From Trichococcus pasteurii (GTDB lineage: Bacteria > Bacillota > Bacilli > Lactobacillales > Aerococcaceae), in assembly GCF_900112935.1 (NCBI RefSeq), contig NZ_FONM01000001.1, positions 124,001-188,000 on the forward strand: DNA of 64,000 nucleotides, in the 5' to 3' direction. Shown here piece by piece: positions 11,681-19,564 of the stretch (its first letter is position 1; each line of letters opens with the position of its first letter). Made by a program: the position numbers and the translations under genes. The notes beneath the pieces were generated by a model, which was given only the letters and a program-made list of their open reading frames with translations, had not been told where the DNA came from and did no database searches.

Positions 11681-11975
11681 AAAAAAATACGTCCTTGCGC
11701 ATGATGCTGCGCAAGGACGTATGAAAGATTCACCGTGTTACCACCTTGGTTCAGAAAAACCTCTCGATTTTTCCCTTAACCAGTACGCCGCAGCAAATCG
11801 CTGTTCCGGGATACTGTGATGCTGTAACGGGCATTCCCGTGGGGGGCTAAGGTTCTAAAAAGAGCGTTCGCCGTCCACTCACTCGAAGACCATTTTCCGG
11901 ATAGCATCCCTGTCCTCTTCTCAACTGCCGAGGTTCTCTGTGCATTTCGTCCACCCGTACTTATCTTTTCAATGT
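11681..11975 (-). promoter_or_regulatory. T-box leader, probably tRNA-Met responsive
   Basis: On the minus strand: a Stem I region with AGAGA and the CCTC/GAGG distal hairpin around GGCAGTTGAGAA, a T-box AACCAAGGTGGTAACACGG at 11731-11751, and then a perfect 15-bp terminator (11687-11701 with 11708-11722, 6-nt loop) followed by T7. The specifier I favour is ATG at 11893-11891, in GGAAAATGGTC; this is inference, but it fits the MetE-like gene downstream and the known use of Met T-boxes in Lactobacillales. Confidence 0.9.
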
Positions 11976-11999
11976 GAATTTATTTTGAAATTTATATAC

Positions 12000-12028
12000 A
12001 TAATAACAAGTGGATAAGAATGAGTCAA
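12000..12028 (-). promoter_or_regulatory. Promoter of the T-box/MetE-like unit
   Basis: Minus strand TTGACT (12028-12023), 17-nt spacer, TATTAT (12005-12000). Start near 11993. Confidence 0.75.
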
Positions 12029-12096
12029 ACCTTTTTTTAATCTTTTTTTCATCTTGGTGCATTTTGACACGCACTTTTTTCTGTGCAAGAAGGAAA

Positions 12097-12125
12097 TTGC
12101 AATTCATAACATGAGGGTATATACT
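12097..12125 (+). promoter_or_regulatory. Promoter of arsenic unit 1
   Basis: TTGCAA (12097-12102), 17-nt spacer, TATACT (12120-12125), directly followed by an ArsR-type operator. Confidence 0.7.
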
Positions 12126-12126
12126 T

Positions 12127-12148
12127 CATATAGATAGATGTCTATGTG
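12127..12148 (+). promoter_or_regulatory. ArsR-type operator 1
   Basis: Imperfect palindrome with core TAGATAGATGTCTA (12131-12144), sitting at the transcription start. It belongs to a set of four related 14-mers in the island, consensus TWGAWRRANNTCTA. Confidence 0.72.
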
Positions 12149-12214
12149 AAGGCGTTAAGGGCGACAGAACGGGCTAGGGTGCCTCAAAAGACATCAGGAA
12201 AAGAGGAACTGTAT

Positions 12215-12505
12215 ATGACGATTGAATACAAAAACTACGCGAAATGTCTGAAAGTGTTGTCGGACGAAACCAGATTGGAAATCATGGATTTATTGTCGGA
12301 AGGTGAAATGTGCGCCTGTGCGTTATTGGATCAGTTTTCGATCACCCAACCGACTTTGTCCTATCACATGAAGATGATGAAGGACTGCGGCTTGGTTGAC
12401 AGCAGAAAAGACGGTATTTGGGTCAAATACTCCGTGAATCATGAAAAGTTGGATGAGTTGAAGGACTTTTTCCAGACTATGGCCAAACAAAACACCACTG
12501 TATAA
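12215..12505 (+). CDS. arsR: ArsR-family metalloregulator 1
   Basis: 96-residue winged-helix repressor. The metal-binding motif GEMCACALL places Cys33 and Cys35 at the usual alpha-3 ELCVCDL position of arsenite-sensing ArsR proteins; Cys11 could be the third ligand. The recognition helix is TQPTLSYHMKMMKDCGLV, nearly the same as in the second ArsR of this island, which suggests a shared operator. Start ATG 12215 has AGAGGA nine nt upstream; the longer frame upstream has no such site and would begin inside the operator region. Followed 24 nt later by a CxxC protein in the same unit. Confidence 0.9.
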   Translation: MTIEYKNYAKCLKVLSDETRLEIMDLLSEGEMCACALLDQFSITQPTLSYHMKMMKDCGLVDSRKDGIWVKYSVNHEKLDELKDFFQTMAKQNTTV

Positions 12506-12529
12506 TTCATTCGAAAGCGGGGAATGGAA

Positions 12530-12763
12530 ATGGAAATAAAAATTTTGGGACCGGGCTGCCGCAACTGCGAGAAACTGCAGGCAAACGCAACCGAGGCGCT
12601 GAAGAAGATCGGCATGGAAGCAACCATCATTAAAGTGGAGGACCCGAAAGAAATCGCAAAGTACGGTATCATGCAGACTCCGGGGCTGGTTATCAATGAA
12701 AAGGTCGTCTCTTATGGGCGGATTCTGACGCCCAAACACATTGCAGAGCTCCTGCAAAAGTGA
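12530..12763 (+). CDS. Thioredoxin-like small redox-active disulfide protein 1
   Basis: 77 residues, single thioredoxin-fold domain of the redox-active disulfide protein 2 type (MTH895/TM0996-like). The redox pair is GCRNC (Cys10, Cys13) after the first strand, and the cis-proline strand reads MQTPGLVIN. I start at ATG 12530 rather than 12524 because the GCGGGG site then has a seven-nt spacing. Co-transcribed with arsR 1. Such proteins often accompany ArsP-type permeases; a role in reducing metalloid or permease thiols is likely but unproven. A near-copy lies at 14001. Confidence 0.85.
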   Translation: MEIKILGPGCRNCEKLQANATEALKKIGMEATIIKVEDPKEIAKYGIMQTPGLVINEKVVSYGRILTPKHIAELLQK

Positions 12764-12794
12764 TGAATAGAGAAAATCCTATCCTTGCATCGAC

Positions 12795-12843
12795 AAGCTG
12801 CGGAAACCGGGGTGCTGCTCCGGAATTATCGCAGCTTTTTTTA
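12795..12843 (+). terminator. Terminator of arsenic unit 1
   Basis: AAGCTGCG/CGCAGCTT around an inner CCGG/CCGG hairpin, then T7. Confidence 0.82.
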
Positions 12844-12871
12844 TAGTGCCTCAGAACCCGAAAACAACACA

Positions 12872-12901
12872 TTGACATTCATCTATGTGTCGGCGTATAC
12901 T
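12872..12901 (+). promoter_or_regulatory. Promoter of arsenic unit 2
   Basis: Consensus TTGACA (12872-12877), 18-nt spacer, TATACT (12896-12901). A half-site CATCTATG lies within the spacer. Confidence 0.75.
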
Positions 12902-12904
12902 GAT

Positions 12905-12924
12905 ATATAGATAAACATCTATAT
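12905..12924 (+). promoter_or_regulatory. ArsR-type operator 2 (perfect palindrome)
   Basis: ATATAGATAAACATCTATAT, two 8-bp arms around AAAC, placed just downstream of the -10 box. Core TAGATAAACATCTA matches the island consensus. Confidence 0.82.
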
Positions 12925-12963
12925 GATAGGTGGAAAAATATAAATTAGAAGGTGCAGTTCATC

Positions 12964-13968
12964 ATGGGGATTTTTCAGTGGTTAAATGATCAATTATTAA
13001 AAATGCAGTGGCTCAGCGATTTGGTCGCTGTGCTTGTCCGGGATGTCTTCGGATTGGACCTCGCCAGCAGGGTAGGAGGCAGCATCCACTTCTTCATCTA
13101 CGACGTCATCAAAATCTTCATCCTGTTGTCGGTATTGATTTTCGGTATTTCTTACGTGCAAAGCTTCTTCCCGCCTGAGCGGACGAAGAAAATATTGGGA
13201 CGCTTTGATGGCATCACCGCCAATATTCTGGCGGCGTTGCTTGGGACGATTACACCATTCTGTTCCTGTTCCTCGATTCCGCTTTTCATCGGCTTCACCG
13301 GATCGGGACTGCCGTTGGGTGTGACGTTCTCGTTCCTGATCTCTTCGCCATTGGTCGATCTGGCATCCATCATCCTTTTGGCCAGCATCTTCAATTGGAA
13401 GATTGCCATCGCGTATGTCGTTGTGGGTTTGATCCTTGCGGTTGTAGGCGGAACCTTCATCGGGAAAGCGCACCTGGAGGACCAGGTCGAGTCCTTTGTT
13501 TTCGGCAGCCCGACGGTTGAACTGGAGGAAGCCGAGTTGACAAGGAAGGACCGTGTCGATTATGCAGTCGATCAGGTGAAGGAAGTCGTCCAGAAAGTCT
13601 GGCTTTACGTGCTCCTTGGGGTCGGCATCGGGGCTGCCATCCACAACTGGATTCCCGAATCCGTCATAACGGCTCTGTTGGGTCAGGATAAATGGTATTC
13701 GGTATTGGTTGCGACGTTCGTCGGCATTCCGATGTACGCGGATATTTTTGGGACGCTGCCCATTTCCGAAGCGCTTGTCGCAAAAGGTGTCGGACTAGGA
13801 ACCGTGCTTTCCTTCATGATGGGCGTAACGGCATTGTCCTTGCCGTCGATGGTCATGCTGAAACAGGTCGTCAAACCGAAATTGTTGGGCCTCTTCTTCG
13901 GAATCGTGGCAGTCGGCATCATCATCATCGGCTATGTGTTCAATTTCTTGGGACCTATTTTTATGTGA
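12964..13968 (+). CDS. ArsP_1/DUF318-type permease
   Basis: 334-residue membrane protein of the ArsP_1 permease family, whose best-studied member exports trivalent organoarsenicals. Hydrophobic helices are interrupted by the diagnostic TPFCSCSSIPLFIGF (Cys100, Cys102) and a second SSPLVDLAS element; the C-terminal half repeats the pattern with GIPMYADIFGTLPISEALV. ATG 12964 is preferred (AGAAGG about 11 nt upstream); a GTG at 12952 would add four residues. It is followed after 32 nt by a CxxC protein, and the pair has its own promoter and ArsR operator. Substrate inferred to be an arsenical; another soft metal or thiol compound is possible. Confidence 0.85.
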   Translation: MGIFQWLNDQLLKMQWLSDLVAVLVRDVFGLDLASRVGGSIHFFIYDVIKIFILLSVLIFGISYVQSFFPPERTKKILGRFDGITANILAALLGTITPFCSCSSIPLFIGFTGSGLPLGVTFSFLISSPLVDLASIILLASIFNWKIAIAYVVVGLILAVVGGTFIGKAHLEDQVESFVFGSPTVELEEAELTRKDRVDYAVDQVKEVVQKVWLYVLLGVGIGAAIHNWIPESVITALLGQDKWYSVLVATFVGIPMYADIFGTLPISEALVAKGVGLGTVLSFMMGVTALSLPSMVMLKQVVKPKLLGLFFGIVAVGIIIIGYVFNFLGPIFM

Positions 13969-14000
13969 TCAAAAAAATAATAAACAGGAGGAATATCATC

Positions 14001-14234
14001 ATGGAAATCAAAATTTTGGGTATAGGCTGCAAAAATTGCGTGAATTTGGCTAAGAACACGGAAGAGGCATTGAAGGAACTGGGGATGGAAGCAACCATCA
14101 CAAAAGTGACCGACATGAAGGACATCGCAAAATACGGCATCATGCGCACACCAGGATTGGTCATCGACGAGAAAGTCGTATCCTACGGTAAAGTCGCCAG
14201 TACGGAAGAAATCACAGAATTGTTGAAAAAATAA
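14001..14234 (+). CDS. Thioredoxin-like small redox-active disulfide protein 2
   Basis: 77 residues, a close paralogue of the protein at 12530 with the same GxGCxNC redox motif (GCKNC, Cys10 and Cys13), KYGIMRTPGLVIDEKVVSYG and the same length. Strong SD AGGAGG. It is co-transcribed with the ArsP-type permease, which suggests it services that transporter or reduces its cargo. Retention of two copies in separately promoted units is unusual. Confidence 0.85.
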   Translation: MEIKILGIGCKNCVNLAKNTEEALKELGMEATITKVTDMKDIAKYGIMRTPGLVIDEKVVSYGKVASTEEITELLKK

Positions 14235-14243
14235 AAATTTTCG

Positions 14244-14286
14244 GAAGTGCCGGGTGGGGAATTATTCTCTGTCCGGCACTTTCTTT
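14244..14286 (+). terminator. Terminator of arsenic unit 2
   Basis: GAAGTGCCGG/CCGGCACTTTC hairpin followed by TTTG; modest T-run. Confidence 0.7.
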
Positions 14287-14306
14287 GCACAAATTCTATT
14301 TTGTGT

Positions 14307-14335
14307 TTGACTGTAGATTGAAGAAGTTCTATATT
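14307..14335 (+). promoter_or_regulatory. Promoter of the ArsD-like gene with ArsR-type operator 4
   Basis: TTGACT (14307-14312), 17-nt spacer, TATATT (14330-14335). The operator-like 14-mer TTGAAGAAGTTCTA (14318-14331) fills the spacer and touches the -10 box; it is the weakest match of the four. Confidence 0.62.
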
Positions 14336-14407
14336 GTAAAGGTAACAAAAAAATTTTAAGCTATCAAAAGCTATTCAAAATACAAACAAGCTAAGGGGAA
14401 ATGAATC

Positions 14408-14950
14408 ATGACAAACATTACTATTTTTGAACCGGAAACAAGCAGCAGCTTGTTCAGTAGCCAGGATGCCCTGCGCATTGCAGCAGTAATGGAGGCTTTG
14501 GAAGGCTTGGAGAATTACGAGGCATTGCTTTTTAATTTGACCGATGATGCGGATCAATTCACGCTAAACAAGGCCGTTAACGAAAAAATCGAGGCGGAAG
14601 GCAATAGCGTCTTGCCAATCACTGTTGTGGATGGAGCAATCGTTAAAAGCGGCAGCTACCCGACCAACGATGAAATCACAAGCTATATCGGCGTCCGCTT
14701 CATTGAAGAGACAGAAGGCTCTTGTGGTTGCGGAGGCTGTGGTTGTGGCGGTTCGGAGGAATTTGCCGAAGCAGAAGAAGTAGAAAAAGAAGAAAAAGAA
14801 GAAAAAGAAGAATCTGGCTGCTGCGGCGGCAATGGCGGAAAAGGCGGCTGTGGCTGCGGTGGTCATGGACACCATCATCACCATAAGCATGAGGAAGCTG
14901 CAACAGCAAGTAAGGGCTCATGCGGTTGTGGACAGGGCGGCTGTTGCTAG
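14408..14950 (+). CDS. arsD: ArsD-like protein with Ser-substituted N-terminal site and Cys/His-rich C-terminal tail
   Basis: 180 residues. Residues 1-100 follow ArsD, the arsenite metallochaperone: TIFEPE at the start, LLFNLTDDADQF, LPITVVDGAIVKSGSYPTNDEI and a terminal IGV. The three cysteines that ArsD needs to hold arsenite (12, 13, 18) are all serine here (ETSSSLFSS). The C-terminal 80 residues are added: CGCGGCGCGG, an acidic Glu/Lys run, CCGG, CGCGG, a seven-His stretch (GHGHHHHHKH) and CGCGQGGCC, 12 cysteines in all. No arsA ATPase, ArsD's normal partner, is in the window. A metalloid or metal buffer is likely; regulation by ArsR is inferred from the operator. Confidence 0.75.
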   Translation: MTNITIFEPETSSSLFSSQDALRIAAVMEALEGLENYEALLFNLTDDADQFTLNKAVNEKIEAEGNSVLPITVVDGAIVKSGSYPTNDEITSYIGVRFIEETEGSCGCGGCGCGGSEEFAEAEEVEKEEKEEKEESGCCGGNGGKGGCGCGGHGHHHHHKHEEAATASKGSCGCGQGGCC

Positions 14951-14957
14951 CAAAAAT

Positions 14958-15006
14958 AAAGAATACTCGTGTCTCGGGATACCCCGGCTCGAGTTTCTTT
15001 TTCAGC
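14958..15006 (+). terminator. Terminator of the ArsD-like gene
   Basis: AAAGAATACTCG/CGAGTTTCTTT arms with a GC-rich inner part (CGGG/CCCG), then TTTTTC. Confidence 0.72.
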
Positions 15007-15030
15007 GATAGATAGAAAAACTTCTATATA
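15001..15030 (+). promoter_or_regulatory. Promoter of arsenic unit 4 with ArsR-type operator 3
   Basis: TTCAGC (15001-15006), 18-nt spacer, TATATA (15025-15030). Operator TAGAAAAACTTCTA (15013-15026) overlaps the spacer and -10 box. Confidence 0.65.
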
Positions 15031-15049
15031 AAAAGGAGCATCAGCAATC

Positions 15050-15394
15050 ATGGATTATGAAAATTATGCAAAAATCGCAAAGGCTTTGGCCGACCCGAAG
15101 CGCGTAAAAATTGTCGATATGCTTTCCTGCGGGGCCATGTGTGCCTGCGACATACTGGAACATTTCGATTTTACCCAGCCAACTTTATCCCATCACATCA
15201 ATCTGTTGGTGAAGGCGGGACTGGTGACGACGGAAAAATCCGGCACATGGCATTATTACGATCTGAATAAAGACGCTTTCGAAAAATTCAAGGTAGATAC
15301 AGCGGAACTGATGGCCAATACACCGGCCTGCATCTGTGAACCGGTGCGGTCAAAAGCTATGTGTACAACGGAAGAAAAAGAAAAGATCAAATGA
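15050..15394 (+). CDS. arsR: ArsR-family metalloregulator 2
   Basis: 114-residue winged-helix repressor with the alpha-3 site CGAMCACDIL (Cys27, Cys31, Cys33) and an extra C-terminal cysteine set (ACIC at 93-96 and Cys105) missing from the first ArsR. Recognition helix TQPTLSHHINLLVKAGLV is close to that of ArsR 1. Start ATG 15050 after AAGGAG. First gene of a unit with acr3 and the CoA-disulfide reductase. Two repressors with different thiol sets could respond to different inducers while sharing operators. Confidence 0.9.
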   Translation: MDYENYAKIAKALADPKRVKIVDMLSCGAMCACDILEHFDFTQPTLSHHINLLVKAGLVTTEKSGTWHYYDLNKDAFEKFKVDTAELMANTPACICEPVRSKAMCTTEEKEKIK

Positions 15395-15444
15395 CGCAAG
15401 GAATGCTATAAAGAGCGTAAAACAATAAATGGAGGTATAATATA

Positions 15445-16524
15445 ATGAGTGGAAAAGAGCAAACAAGCATCTCGTTCTTCAATAAGTATCTGAGTGTCTG
15501 GGTAGCAATCTGTATGGTGGTGGGGGTTTTGATCGGTAAATATCTACCGGCCATCCCTGAATTTTTCGGGAAATTCGAATATGCGAACGTCTCGATCCCG
15601 ACAGCCGTCTTGATCTGGGTCATGATTTACCCGATGATGATGAAGGTGGATTTCCAAAGCGTCTGGGACGTCGGGAAGAATCCGAAAGGACTTTATGTCA
15701 CTTGGGCAGTGAACTGGCTGATCAAACCGTTCACCATGTACGCCATTTCAGCTTTTTTCTTTTTTGTCGTCTTCAAGAATTTCATTACGCCCGAATTGGC
15801 GACGGAGTACTTGGCCGGTGCGATTCTCTTGGGAGCTGCCCCGTGTACGGCTATGGTGTTTGTCTGGAGCCAATTGACAAAAGGCAATCCAGCGTACACT
15901 GTCGTTCAGGTTGCGACCAATGATCTGATCATTCTGGTAGCCTTCATTCCAATCGTCAAATTTTTACTGGGTGTCAGCAATGTAACGGTTCCTTGGGATA
16001 CCTTGATTTTGTCCGTTGTGTTGTTTGTCGTGATTCCGTTGGTCGGTGGCGTTTTGACGCGGATCTTCGTCACAAAGAAAAAAGGCGTCGCTTATTTCGA
16101 GAAGGATTTTCTTTCGAAATTTGACGGCGCAACTACAGCAGGGTTATTGTTGATGCTGGTCTTGCTGTTCTCTTTCCAAGGAGAGGTCATTCTGGAGAAC
16201 CCGTTGCACATTTTGATGATCGCAGTGCCTTTGATCCTGCAGACATTCCTGATTTTCTTCATTGCCTATTTTGCAAGCAAGGCCTTGAAGCTTCCACACG
16301 CAATCGCCGCACCAGCCGGGATGATCGGCGCATCGAACTTTTTTGAATTATCGGTCGCTGTTGCCATCGCGTTGTTCGGAATGGATTCTCCGGCAGCTTT
16401 GGCTACAGTGGTTGGCGTCCTGACAGAAGTGCCGGTGATGCTGATTTTGGTGAAAATCGCCAATTCTACAAGACAGTGGTTTCCCGGAAAAGAAACAAGG
16501 GTAGTGAATCCTGTAAAGCGATAA
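15445..16524 (+). CDS. acr3: Acr3-family arsenite efflux transporter
   Basis: 359-residue, ten-helix arsenite/proton antiporter of the Acr3 (BART) family. The conserved cysteine lies in LGAAPCTAMVFVWS (Cys134), and the C-terminal part has IGASNFFELSVAVAIALFG, the second family signature. Start ATG 15445 after GGAGG. It follows arsR 2 by 50 nt and precedes a flavoprotein by 34 nt. No ArsA ATPase is seen, so export is presumably driven by the proton gradient. Confidence 0.95.
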   Translation: MSGKEQTSISFFNKYLSVWVAICMVVGVLIGKYLPAIPEFFGKFEYANVSIPTAVLIWVMIYPMMMKVDFQSVWDVGKNPKGLYVTWAVNWLIKPFTMYAISAFFFFVVFKNFITPELATEYLAGAILLGAAPCTAMVFVWSQLTKGNPAYTVVQVATNDLIILVAFIPIVKFLLGVSNVTVPWDTLILSVVLFVVIPLVGGVLTRIFVTKKKGVAYFEKDFLSKFDGATTAGLLLMLVLLFSFQGEVILENPLHILMIAVPLILQTFLIFFIAYFASKALKLPHAIAAPAGMIGASNFFELSVAVAIALFGMDSPAALATVVGVLTEVPVMLILVKIANSTRQWFPGKETRVVNPVKR

Positions 16525-16558
16525 AATAATCCATCTTAACTGAAAAGGAGAATTTATT

Positions 16559-18226
16559 ATGAAAATCATCGTAATCGGTTCGGTAGCGGCGGGCACCTCC
16601 GTTGCAGCCAAAGCGCGCAGAAATACAGAGGAAGCGGAAATCGTCGTCTATGACCAAGGTAAGGACATTTCCTATTCCGTCTGCGGTATCCCCTACAAAA
16701 TCGGCGGGGAAGTCGATTCAGTGGATCGCTTGACGCCGCGTGATGCGAAATGGTTCAAAAAGAGATACGATGTCTCCATCTTTACGGAACATAAAGTGAC
16801 GAAAGTTGATCATGACTCCAAAAAGATTCAAGTTAAAGATCTGAAGACAGGCGAAATCAAAGAGGACCATTATGATGTGTTGGTTTTTGCGACAGGTGCG
16901 GCCCCCCTTACGCCTCCGCCGTTCGATCAGGGTGAATATGATAATGTTTTTCATGTCCGCAACATCCAGGATCTTCGTGACATAGAAAGTTATTCGGAAG
17001 CGAACCAACCGAAAAAAGCGCTGATCATCGGTGCCGGGTTCATCGGTCTGGAAATGGCAGAACAACTCGTGTACAAGGGGTGGAATGTCACTATCGTTCA
17101 GTTGGAAAATCAAGTGATGCCGCCGATGGATGCGGATATGGCTTTCCGCGTGGAGGAAGTGTTGATGGCCAATGGGGTGCATCTGCACCTCGGGGATACC
17201 GTCAAGACCATCGAAGGTGAGGGAGTCGTCAAAAAAGTGGTGACGACAAAAGGCGCCAACATCGAAACAGATATCGTCATTCTGGCTGCCGGCGTGCGTC
17301 CGAACACCGAGCTGGCGAAAGAAATCGGCGTCACGATCGGAGCGACGGGTGCGGTTGCAGTCAACAGCAAACTGCAGACGAATGTCCCGGATGTTTATGC
17401 GGTCGGAGACGTCGCCGAAAGCTTCTCGGTCATCACAGGCAAACCGATCTACCGTCCATTGGGCTCTACGGCCAATAAGATGGGACGGATCGCCGGAGAC
17501 GTGATTACCGGCGGCGACCTGGAGCACAGGGGCGTCTTGGGTACCGGTATTTTTCGCGTATTCAATCTGCATGTTGGCCAGACAGGCATGACCGAAAGAG
17601 AAGCGAAGGCAGCCGGTTATTCCGTGGAAGTCCTTTACAACATCAAGCCGGACCACGCCGAATACCTTGGCGGCAAGGAACTGGTCATCAAGGCTTTGGC
17701 AGATAAAGCTTCCGGACGCGTCTTGGGCGCGCAAATCGTGGGCTTCCAGGGTGTGGACAAGCGGATCGATGTCCTTGCCACGGCCATCACCTTCAAGGCG
17801 AAAGCAGAAGACCTATTCCACTTGGATTTGGCTTATGCACCGCCGTTCGCTACAACAAAAGACCCTATCCATTATACAGGCATGGCATTGGATAACGCCT
17901 TGCACGGAAATCCTTTGATGACGCCGGCCCAATTGGTCGAAACGCAACATAAAGGCGAAACCATCCAGGTGGTAGATACGCGTTCCGCCAAGGACTTCGA
18001 GAAGGGCCATGTCCAAGATGCAATCCACATCCCGTTGGGGGAACTGCGTGCCCGCGCCGGTGAGCTTTCCAAAGAGATCCCGACAGTTACCTACTGCAAC
18101 AAAGGCGTGACCGGAAATGCCGCTCAGAATGTTTTGATCAATTTAGGCTTCCAGGAAGTCTACAACCTTTCCGGCGGCAATAAAAATTATCAAAGTTACC
18201 TTAAAATGCTGAAGCGAAAAAGCTGA
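16559..18226 (+). CDS. CoA-disulfide reductase with C-terminal rhodanese domain (arsenic island copy)
   Basis: 555 residues. Residues 1-445 form a class of single-cysteine pyridine nucleotide-disulfide reductases: FAD motif IGSVAAG, active cysteine YSVCGIPYKIGG (Cys42), NAD motif GAGFIGLEMAE and dimerisation-domain tail AYAPPFATTKDP. Residues about 460-555 are a rhodanese domain with its cysteine in TYCNKGVTGN (Cys513). The family reduces CoA disulfide or persulfides with NAD(P)H. Last gene of arsR2-acr3 unit; in this setting it may restore low-molecular thiols or handle sulfane sulfur made during arsenite stress. A second fusion of the same kind lies at 59171. Confidence 0.9.
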   Translation: MKIIVIGSVAAGTSVAAKARRNTEEAEIVVYDQGKDISYSVCGIPYKIGGEVDSVDRLTPRDAKWFKKRYDVSIFTEHKVTKVDHDSKKIQVKDLKTGEIKEDHYDVLVFATGAAPLTPPPFDQGEYDNVFHVRNIQDLRDIESYSEANQPKKALIIGAGFIGLEMAEQLVYKGWNVTIVQLENQVMPPMDADMAFRVEEVLMANGVHLHLGDTVKTIEGEGVVKKVVTTKGANIETDIVILAAGVRPNTELAKEIGVTIGATGAVAVNSKLQTNVPDVYAVGDVAESFSVITGKPIYRPLGSTANKMGRIAGDVITGGDLEHRGVLGTGIFRVFNLHVGQTGMTEREAKAAGYSVEVLYNIKPDHAEYLGGKELVIKALADKASGRVLGAQIVGFQGVDKRIDVLATAITFKAKAEDLFHLDLAYAPPFATTKDPIHYTGMALDNALHGNPLMTPAQLVETQHKGETIQVVDTRSAKDFEKGHVQDAIHIPLGELRARAGELSKEIPTVTYCNKGVTGNAAQNVLINLGFQEVYNLSGGNKNYQSYLKMLKRKS

Positions 18227-18245
18227 GTCGCTGAATGTATGCGAA

Positions 18246-18282
18246 CAAATGGAGAATCCAAAGCGGATCCTCCATTTTCTTT
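18246..18282 (+). terminator. Terminator of arsenic unit 4
   Basis: AAATGGAG/CTCCATTT with an inner ATCC/GGAT helix, then TTCTTT. Confidence 0.75.
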
Positions 18283-18364
18283 GCATTAAAATCTGATTAA
18301 GGGTGCCAATTGTCAGGACGAGTGATAGAATAAAAAGTAAGCCAAATGTTGGGAGGATGAATAC

Positions 18365-19564
18365 ATGAATTATGATTTCGAAACGCCCGTCAATCGGAGC
18401 AACACAGGATCCGAAAAATGGGCAGCCATGTACAGAAGCAATCCGAATGTGGGAAAGGATGTTTATCCCTTTTCTGTAGCGGATTTGGATATAAAAACAG
18501 CACCGGAGATCGTCAAGGGGTTGCAGGAATACATCGAAACGGCTGTAATGGGCTATGATCTGCCGACCGAAGACTATTACCGGGCAATCATTCATTGGAT
18601 GGGGAATCGCCATTCTTGGGAAATCAAGAAGGAATGGATCATCTGCACACCGGGCATCATCGCGGCGTTCTATTCCGCTATCCGGGCGTACACAGAGCCG
18701 GGCGACGGCGTCCTTTACATGGGACCGGTCTATTACCCATTCATGAAGTCAATCAAAAACACGAAACGGACGCTGATCAACAATTCATTGGTCCGAAACG
18801 GCGATCGTTACGAAATCGATTTTGAGGGCTTGGCCGAGAAAGCCAAAGATCCGAAAACGAAGCTGATGCTGTTCAGCAATCCGCATAATCCGGTCGGCCG
18901 CGTCTGGACCAAAGCAGAACTGGAGCGGATCGTCGACATCTGCGCCGCCAATGACGTTGTGATTTTGGCGGATGAAATCCACCACGATCTGATCATGCCC
19001 GGACATGTCTTCACACCGATGGCATCCATATCCGAAGCAGCCACGGACATCTGCATCACGGCAACCGCCGCCAGCAAGTCCTTCAATATCGCGGGCCTGC
19101 GCAATTCCAACGTCATCATTTCGAATCCGAAGCTTCACACAGCTTTCAAGATGGATATGGAAATGACTGGCATCGGCGGAGGAACCAACGTCATCGGGTT
19201 GAAGGCGACAGAGATTGCCTATACTGCAGCCGAGGACTGGCTGGAAGAGTTCAAAGCTTTGATCTGGCACAACCATGAGACGTTAAAGAATTTCTTGGCG
19301 AAGGAACTGCCGGAAGTTACTGTCTTCGATCTGGAAGGGACTTATCTGCAATGGATGGATTTCAGTGCCTTCGGTTTGTCGCACAAGCAGTTGGAAGAAA
19401 TCATGGAGGAAGAGGCACAAGTATTCCTGGATGAAGGCTACATATTCGGGGACGAAGGCCGCGGCTACGAAAGAATCAGCTTGGGAGCCCCTACGAAGAC
19501 GCTGATGGAAGCGATGGAGCGCCTGGTCACAGTCATGAAAAAATACCGGAAACAAAATCAATAG
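18365..19564 (+). CDS. MalY/PatB-family PLP enzyme (cystathionine beta-lyase or aminotransferase)
   Basis: 399-residue fold-type I PLP enzyme. Landmarks: VADLDIKTAPEI and GYDLP at the N-terminus, YYPFMKSI, SNPHNPVGRVW, ADEIHHDL and the Schiff-base lysine in ASKSFNIAGLRNS (Lys238), all typical of the MalY/PatB C-S lyase group. It probably cleaves cystathionine or cysteine conjugates to release homocysteine or sulfide. Start ATG 18365 after GGGAGG. Its place directly after the thiol-linked arsenic island may be chance. Confidence 0.87.
   Translation: MNYDFETPVNRSNTGSEKWAAMYRSNPNVGKDVYPFSVADLDIKTAPEIVKGLQEYIETAVMGYDLPTEDYYRAIIHWMGNRHSWEIKKEWIICTPGIIAAFYSAIRAYTEPGDGVLYMGPVYYPFMKSIKNTKRTLINNSLVRNGDRYEIDFEGLAEKAKDPKTKLMLFSNPHNPVGRVWTKAELERIVDICAANDVVILADEIHHDLIMPGHVFTPMASISEAATDICITATAASKSFNIAGLRNSNVIISNPKLHTAFKMDMEMTGIGGGTNVIGLKATEIAYTAAEDWLEEFKALIWHNHETLKNFLAKELPEVTVFDLEGTYLQWMDFSAFGLSHKQLEEIMEEEAQVFLDEGYIFGDEGRGYERISLGAPTKTLMEAMERLVTVMKKYRKQNQ

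Follow-up and report, generated by a model that had tools for sequence, protein, structure and literature searches.

The window, i.e., the whole stretch of 64 kb analysed here (G000:C26:124001-188000, from a genome of Trichococcus, family Carnobacteriaceae, with 3.2 Mb and 100% completeness), carries an ars cluster whose genes all lie on the + strand in the order arsR1, thioredoxin-like gene, ArsP permease, thioredoxin-like gene, ArsD-like gene, arsR2, acr3 and CoA-disulfide-reductase-like flavoprotein. Table 1 summarizes the genes and the putative control elements. Small ArsE-type thioredoxin-like genes (12524-12763 and 14001-14234) flank the ArsP permease gene on both sides. The main finding concerns the ArsD-like protein, which is a real, conserved, genus-level variant of the known ArsD family.

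Table 1. Genes, protein regions and candidate control elements of the ars cluster (positions in the window)
Feature	Position	Strand	Basis
ArsR/SmtB-family regulator 1 (arsR1)	12146..12505, likely ATG start 12215	+	Pfam HTH_5 60 bits; NCBIfam HTH_metalloreg 93 bits, above cut-off
Small thioredoxin-like protein, MTH895/ArsE family	12524..12763	+	TIGR00412 93.5 bits, cut-off 62
ArsP-family permease	12952..13968	+	Pfam ArsP_1 227 bits; below cut-offs of the SaoE and SO_0444 models
Second small thioredoxin-like protein, MTH895/ArsE family	14001..14234	+	TIGR00412 104 bits, cut-off 62
Strong hairpin with weak T run, possible terminator of the upstream unit	14243..14283	+	RNA fold -26.9 kcal/mol, z -6.2; missed by terminator scan
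Promoter-like site of arsD, TTGACT, 17, TATATT	14307..14335	+	10/12 consensus matches
ArsR-type operator-like inverted repeat ATTGAAGAAGTTCTAT, within the promoter spacer	14317..14332	.	11/12 specified bases
ArsD-like protein, 180 aa (main finding)	14408..14950	+	ORF; Pfam/NCBIfam scans; alignment; AlphaFold2
ArsD (thioredoxin-like) fold domain, residues 1-102	14408..14713	+	AlphaFold2 pLDDT; Foldseek
Rebuilt loop, residues 10-18 ETSSSLFSS, replacing an AMCCxTGVCGPSxD type loop	14435..14461	+	58-row alignment
Tail, residues 103-180: 12 Cys, 7 His, Gly-rich and Glu-rich blocks	14714..14947	+	pLDDT; residue count
Hairpin followed by T run 3' of arsD, possible terminator	14960..14998	+	RNA fold -15.4 kcal/mol, z -2.5; missed by terminator scan
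ArsR-type operator-like inverted repeat ATAGAAAAACTTCTAT, before arsR2	15012..15027	.	12/12, best site in window
ArsR/SmtB-family regulator 2 (arsR2)	15050..15394	+	HTH_metalloreg 91.8 bits, cut-off 55
Acr3 arsenite efflux transporter	15445..16524	+	TIGR00832 376.5 bits, cut-off 282.8
CoA-disulfide-reductase-like flavoprotein with C-terminal rhodanese domain	16559..18226	+	Pfam Pyr_redox_2, Rhodanese; below CoA-disulfide reductase equivalog cut-offs

Pfam ArsD (PF06953) matches residues 1-114 along positions 1-117 of its 123-position profile with 66.5 bits (cut-off 27). In the AlphaFold2 model, mean pLDDT per ten residues is 85-96 over residues 1-102, but drops to 66 at residues 11-20, and the top PDB matches found by Foldseek are the ArsD crystal structures 3ktb, 3mwh and 3kgk (target TM 0.80-0.87, E 5e-9 to 2e-6). 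The statement of the preliminary description that the ArsD fold is kept is therefore borne out. The window protein reaches 54.5 bits against the NCBIfam ArsD metallochaperone equivalog NF033727, below the cut-off of 90, and two other proteins of the same type, here called Ser-type (tailed ArsDs with a Cys-less loop), score 56.3 and 55.6 bits. The protein is a member of the ArsD fold family that fails the tests defining an ArsA-directed metallochaperone.

The fold domain is followed by a tail composed of CGCGG, GCCGG and HHHH/HHHHH blocks with Glu-rich spacers, in which pLDDT stays below 50 across residues 103-180. The tail had been noted before, and the count agrees: 12 Cys and 7 His stand in the last 75 residues, a sum of 19, compared with 15 in the next-best 75-residue stretch among the window ORFs of at least 75 aa. 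Nine complete fetched Ser-type tails contain 9-14 Cys. Tails in Trichococcus vary in length (56-95 residues) and in His content (5-18, with 1 His in the tail of the genome G065), and a His run is present in the genome G064 and in the Ser clade. The composition suggests that the tail may bind metals or metalloids. Both the Cys/His-rich, low-complexity composition and the low pLDDT would fit a metallothionein-like buffer, and the tail is probably disordered, although low pLDDT alone is no proof of disorder.

Cys12, Cys13 and Cys18 of ArsD, which bind arsenite, had all been described as converted to Ser in the window protein. By simple count, residues 12, 13 and 18 are indeed Ser. In MAFFT alignments of 5 sequences, of the 13 Trichococcus proteins and of 58 ArsDs, Ser12 and Ser13 face Cys12 and Cys13, but a five-residue gap spans GVCGP, including Cys18, so that the equivalence of residues 12-18 is upheld for the first two positions and not for Ser18. 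This indicates a loop that was shortened and rebuilt rather than three Cys-to-Ser swaps; the position of the gap is uncertain by a few residues, and the loop is without Cys under either placement. In the 58-row alignment, a chosen subset of 83 distinct ORFs together with the window protein from which a row with the CC pair only was left out, all 11 Ser-type proteins have a Cys-free loop and all 45 other ArsDs chosen have C, C and C. Changes fixed in the Ser type (11/11 versus at least 35/45 of the others) comprise A10E, M11T, C12S, C13S, T15L, the deletion and then F16, S17 and S18 in the loop and, by the same criterion and in window numbering, L21A, R41L and P48A beyond it; the others have Leu at position 21 in 44/45, Arg at position 41 in 44/45 and Pro at position 48 in 43/45. 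L69 and P70, which we take to occupy the place expected for the cis-proline of the thioredoxin fold, are invariant across all 58 aligned ArsDs. Codons 11-19 show synonymous variation only in 11/11 Ser-type genes.

An ArsD match is present in each of the 13 Trichococcus genomes examined, and the homologue search proposed in the preliminary description recovered the Ser-type protein in 11 of them. Ten of these 11 genomes are at least 98% complete; the other, G070, is 51% complete, and its arsD-like gene runs into a contig edge. The remaining two, G064 and G065, encode a tailed ArsD keeping C12, C13 and C18, and these are also the 2/13 genomes with a full-length arsA. No full-length arsA was detected in the 11 Ser-type genomes, where matches to the ArsA of a congener are confined to 41-42 residues of the P-loop; for G070 this absence is not secure because of its completeness of 51%. 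With regard to the window, the earlier statement that ArsA is missing stands: none lies in the cluster, and the sole match of the congener's ArsA (583 aa) in the genome is a 41-residue P-loop (E 7.7e-4, 19 bits) in a 254-aa frame. Pfam ArsA_ATPase, a model with a low cut-off that also finds matches in 14/14 control genomes, has three matches in the window genome, two of them above the cut-off (33.9 and 25.7 bits). These were rejected as arsA and, from reading the proteins themselves rather than from a family search, are considered a ParA-like protein of 274 aa, a ParA/Soj-like one of 254 aa and a third of 397 aa whose start is receiver-like.

Acr3 is encoded in 10/13 Trichococcus genomes, i.e., in 10 of the 11 Ser-type genomes, and was not found in G064 (63% complete), G065 (100%) and G070 (51%). 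ArsB scored above its cut-off in 0/13, with weak matches below the cut-off in 9. The arsD-like gene adjoins arsP in 12/13 genomes including that of the window, the exception being G065, in which the tailed arsD lies at a contig end apart from arsA and a second, tail-less Cys-type arsD is located downstream of arsA. The order in G064 is arsR1, trx, arsP, trx, tailed Cys-type arsD, arsA, arsR2, CoADR-like gene and MIP channel, with arsA 14 bases downstream of the tailed, triad-bearing arsD. Two other genomes of the family (L055 and L056) show arsD, arsA, a second arsD, arsR, acr3 and the CoADR-like gene; arsA of L056 is split into two ORFs. On the simplest reading, the ancestor would have possessed both arsA and acr3, of which G064 and G065 lost acr3 and the others arsA. 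Because the 13 genomes are related, as few as one or two events may underlie the match between arsA and the triad.

The sequence of these changes was deduced from a maximum-likelihood tree of 74 distinct ArsD domains, in which the tailed Cys-type protein of G065 is sister to a group formed by the tailed Cys-type protein of G064 and 10 Ser-type rows (supports 100/99, 99/93 and 100/100). With 106 columns for 74 rows, the deep forks are poorly resolved and the three Trichococcus nodes are well supported; identical domains were merged, and the tree omitted the window's own row, 11 ORFs below 85 bits, 6 missed by the start pattern and 1 that was too short. The Ser form is thus nested within the tailed Cys form, which places the gain of the tail before the loss of the triad. 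The earlier proposal that the metal site moved from the triad to a tail acquired in its place is contradicted by this order and by G064 and G065, where tail and triad occur together. Loss of the loop appears to have gone in step with loss of arsA.

Two other origins of the present arrangement were considered and set aside. Replacement of the N-terminal domain by recombination onto an old tail has left no sign, because the fold domain and the tail have diverged about equally between the window genome and G064: the fold domain shows 70% amino acid identity with 16/28 four-fold sites differing, and the tail 72% with 10/24. For copying of the CGCGG tail from another gene, the pattern TGYGGNTGYGGNGG was counted in the genome, where it occurs 6 times versus 4 for the backwards pattern. 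Three of the 6 copies are inside the arsD-like gene; the remaining 3 lie in frames without a comparable Cys/His tail, one of which (L144) is a short frame starting ACCGCGGC.

The arsD-like gene is under purifying selection. Pooled over codons 1-100 of the 11 Ser-type genes, pN is 0.052 and pS 0.42, giving a ratio of 0.12. In 7 or 8 Ser-type genomes, pN/pS amounts to 0.046 for arsP, 0.047 for acr3, 0.072 for arsR2 and 0.123 for the ArsD domain, which indicates that constraint is looser in the latter than in its neighbours. A relic ArsD on its way to loss would account for this difference as well as for the missing ArsA and the vanished transfer loop. This reading is disfavoured and very improbable, given a pN/pS of 0.12, a frame that is open in 11/11 Ser-type genomes as far as the contigs reach, purely synonymous variation of the loop codons in all 11 and an operator-like site that has been kept.

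Beyond Trichococcus, ArsDs with the triad prevail. Own-profile searches of the fetched order and phylum stretches gave 107 ArsD-like ORFs, near-copies included, which comprise 84 with CCxxxxC, 3 with CC only, 10 of the Ser type and 10 remote ones below 60 bits. For 81 of the 84 CCxxxxC proteins arsA is found in the fetched stretch; the other three are the tailed copy of G065 at its contig end and the ArsDs of G050 and G153. The latter two genomes have no match of arsA length, and their tail-less, Cys-intact ArsD is encoded about 390 bases from acr3. Loss of ArsA therefore need not bring loss of the triad, and a general rule that the former forces the latter was rejected. All 12 ArsDs fetched from the 35 phylum matches besides the window have CC and C with arsA in the stretch, although that of L071 is broken by a stop. 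The class search contributed seven regions with 9 arsA genes and 9 ArsDs, of which 7 carry the triad and 2 the CC pair alone. Overall, PF06953 matches were obtained in 98/395 order genomes and 67/398 class genomes, the Cys loops being read in the fetched loci.

The three CC-only ArsDs of the order and phylum stretches are encoded 4 bases from arsA. ArsD paralogues adjacent to arsA that have the CC pair without the third Cys were seen at L080:6275-6583, L083:3768-4076, L084:3740-4048, L147:16911-17261 and L148:12274-12624.

The layout had been supposed to be undescribed. This is supported for the combination of tail and Cys-less loop, which among ArsDs of at least 85 bits (own profile) was seen only in Trichococcus, and does not extend to the Cys-rich tail as such: the ArsDs of L069 and L070, from other classes of Bacillota, carry 10-11 Cys in a C-terminal tail that spans 55-56 residues but differ in their intact triad, their adjacent arsA and a tail without His. 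Among the matches listed from the open-licence PMC literature, no ArsD of this layout was found in titles and abstract openings. A search of genome contigs gave at least 588 pattern matches, which led to 2 loci, both in Trichococcus; no relatives were detected in viral contigs among 500 pattern matches, and among the best 30 of 158 plasmid records none covered 80% of the query.

The arsD-like gene is probably transcribed separately, under an ArsR-type operator of its own, as suggested by the elements around it (Table 1). A consensus scan of 11700-18400 found no more promoter-like sites (11, against 8.4 with sd 2.3 in shuffles) or terminator-like sites (4, against 7.0) than chance would give. 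The promoter match is thus weak by itself; we infer the separate arsD transcript with this in mind. Scored against the consensus ATAGAA-N4-TTCTAT, which was drawn from the scored sites themselves, only the arsD and arsR2 sites attain 11/12 or better in the 64 kb window, and five of the seven sites with at least 10/12 fall within 12130-15027. Allowing up to 2 mismatches, a related operator pattern matches the window 6 times, with one site counted on each of the two strands; shuffled sequences averaged 1.6 matches and in no case reached 6. The arsD site shares its type with the ones that precede arsR1, arsP and arsR2, and in 13/13 Trichococcus genomes a site of at least 10/12 stands some 90 bases upstream of the start codon. 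It is a putative target of ArsR.

The classical reference for this protein is the ArsD metallochaperone of the E. coli R773 type (PF06953, NF033727). For R773 ArsD, chaperone activity has been linked with Cys12, Cys13 and Cys18, and regulation with the vicinal pairs at the C-terminus (PMC4562236). The window protein shares the thioredoxin-like ArsD fold, the place in an ars cluster and C-terminal Cys pairs with this type; it differs in lacking the Cys12/13/18 loop, in its score of 54.5 against the NF033727 cut-off of 90, in a genome where no ArsA was found and in a much longer tail with His blocks. Closest to it are the tailed Cys-intact ArsDs of G064 and G065, which have in common with it the start MTNITIFEP, the kind of tail, the distance of the operator-like site and, in G064, the cluster. 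They differ in keeping C12, C13 and C18, in genomes with arsA where no acr3 was found, and in scores of 119 and 125 bits against NF033727, above the cut-off.

Taken together, the best explanation, whose chance we place a little short of even, is a lineage-specific repurposing of ArsD, in which an arsenite-induced protein would use its tail to buffer a thiophilic metalloid or to hand it over to Acr3 or ArsP. The ancestral ArsD would have combined the arsenite-binding triad with a C-terminal tail that was already long and Cys-rich and subsequently became rich in His as well. Most Trichococcus would then have lost the ArsA ATPase while keeping Acr3, and the transfer loop would have been dismantled by conversion of Cys12 and Cys13 to Ser and deletion of five residues with Cys18, leaving an ArsD fold whose disordered tail consists of CGCGG/GCCGG and HHHH blocks. 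The gene would be expressed on entry of arsenite, antimonite or another thiophilic metal sensed by ArsR, and the tail may bind the metalloid and buffer it until export by Acr3 or ArsP. The nearest functional parallel to such a buffer is the tail of E. coli SlyD (PMC7055735), described below. The role of the tail need not have changed in the process, as it also occurs beside the triad and arsA in G064. Further points against this explanation are the Cys-intact ArsDs of G050 and G153, the constraint on the ArsD domain, looser than on its neighbours, and the variable length and His content of the tail. It is tentatively suggested that this ArsD outlived its ATPase, gave up its arsenite site and acts, in the manner of a metallothionein, through an inducible disordered Cys/His tail that buffers metalloid or feeds Acr3 or ArsP.

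The main rival is a metalloid-sensing secondary regulator that would bind the ars promoters or ArsR and be released when its tail Cys pairs bind As(III); the chaperone half of the double role of ArsD would have been lost, and the regulatory half kept and enlarged. The window protein, without the three N-terminal Cys and with multiplied C-terminal Cys, has the shape expected of it, and the link between the C-terminal pairs of R773 ArsD and regulation is matched by Bacillus CDB3 ArsD, which has no such pairs and was found not to bind DNA (PMC4562236). Nevertheless, in Ochrobactrum tritici the Cys12-Cys13 pair of ArsD is also named in inducer binding, and constructs without arsD had similar resistance, leaving a regulatory role unsupported (PMC2440759). 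Two ArsR-family genes already flank the arsD-like gene, and Pfam and NCBIfam scans of the protein revealed no DNA-binding domain. Such a regulator is a serious rival, though considered unlikely.

Doubtful to a like degree is a store or detoxifier of transition metals (Zn, Ni, Cu), of the SlyD or metallothionein type, for which the location in an ars cluster would be incidental. In chemical terms As(III) does not favour a His run as its ligand, and the His blocks of the tail make a zinc, nickel or copper store possible; the CGCGG, GCCGG and HHHHH blocks with Glu-rich spacers presumably resemble the tails of SlyD. Behind its folded domain, E. coli SlyD carries a C-terminal tail that is unstructured and contains much His, Cys, Asp and Glu; the protein can bind as many as 7 Ni(II) and is regarded as a Ni store (PMC7055735). 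The folded domain of SlyD is of the FKBP type and its biology that of nickel, and the comparison is one of composition, with no homology claimed. Against such a store speak the operator-like site, of one type with the sites of arsR1, arsP and arsR2, and the adjacency of arsP in 12/13 Trichococcus genomes.

Chaperoning independent of an ATPase is improbable. The ArsD fold would dock on Acr3 or ArsP and the tail deliver arsenite to the permease, in keeping with a fold maintained under selection and with Acr3 retained in 10/11 Ser-type genomes while arsA was not found; positions 41, 48 and 21, however, changed together with the loop, and the old contact surface may be altered.

The repurposing of ArsD outlined above would be of interest for two reasons. 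The chaperone function of ArsD is linked to its Cys triad, and under the Pfam model the window protein would still be annotated as ArsD. In addition, Trichococcus offers a natural comparison of the same tailed protein with triad and ArsA (2 genomes) versus without the triad where ArsA was not found (11 genomes), which makes it testable what use ArsD has once ArsA is gone and what the C-terminal Cys of ArsD do alone. If true, a folded carrier has turned into a metallothionein-like protein, with the states before and after both alive in one genus.

Several minor observations concern related loci. In G064 (L037:7148-12376), arsD, arsA, ArsP and a MIP-family channel are joined in one cluster, with no acr3 and no ArsB above the cut-off in a genome of 63% completeness; ArsA may work there with ArsP or the MIP-family channel. 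The window genome encodes a second, remote ArsD-like protein (L053:6284-6610, G000:C32:60283-60543) of 109 aa with 33 bits in Pfam and one Cys; no ars gene was seen near it, and matches of similar score occur in 6/13 Trichococcus genomes, the window's included. ArsD-like proteins of another genus (L138:3818-4198, also L030, L031 and L032) have a shifted CCGGSEEC or CCGGSPTC near residues 17-24 and no ArsD loop. In three genomes of another genus of the family, remote ArsD-like proteins below 40 bits (L050:5177-5557, L051:5485-5829 and L052:5324-5680) combine an N-terminal loop without Cys with a short Cys/His-rich end (CSCGHHH, CCCGHHH); their stretches contain no match to arsA, acr3 or arsP, and a lipoate-ligase-family gene is adjacent in 3/3.
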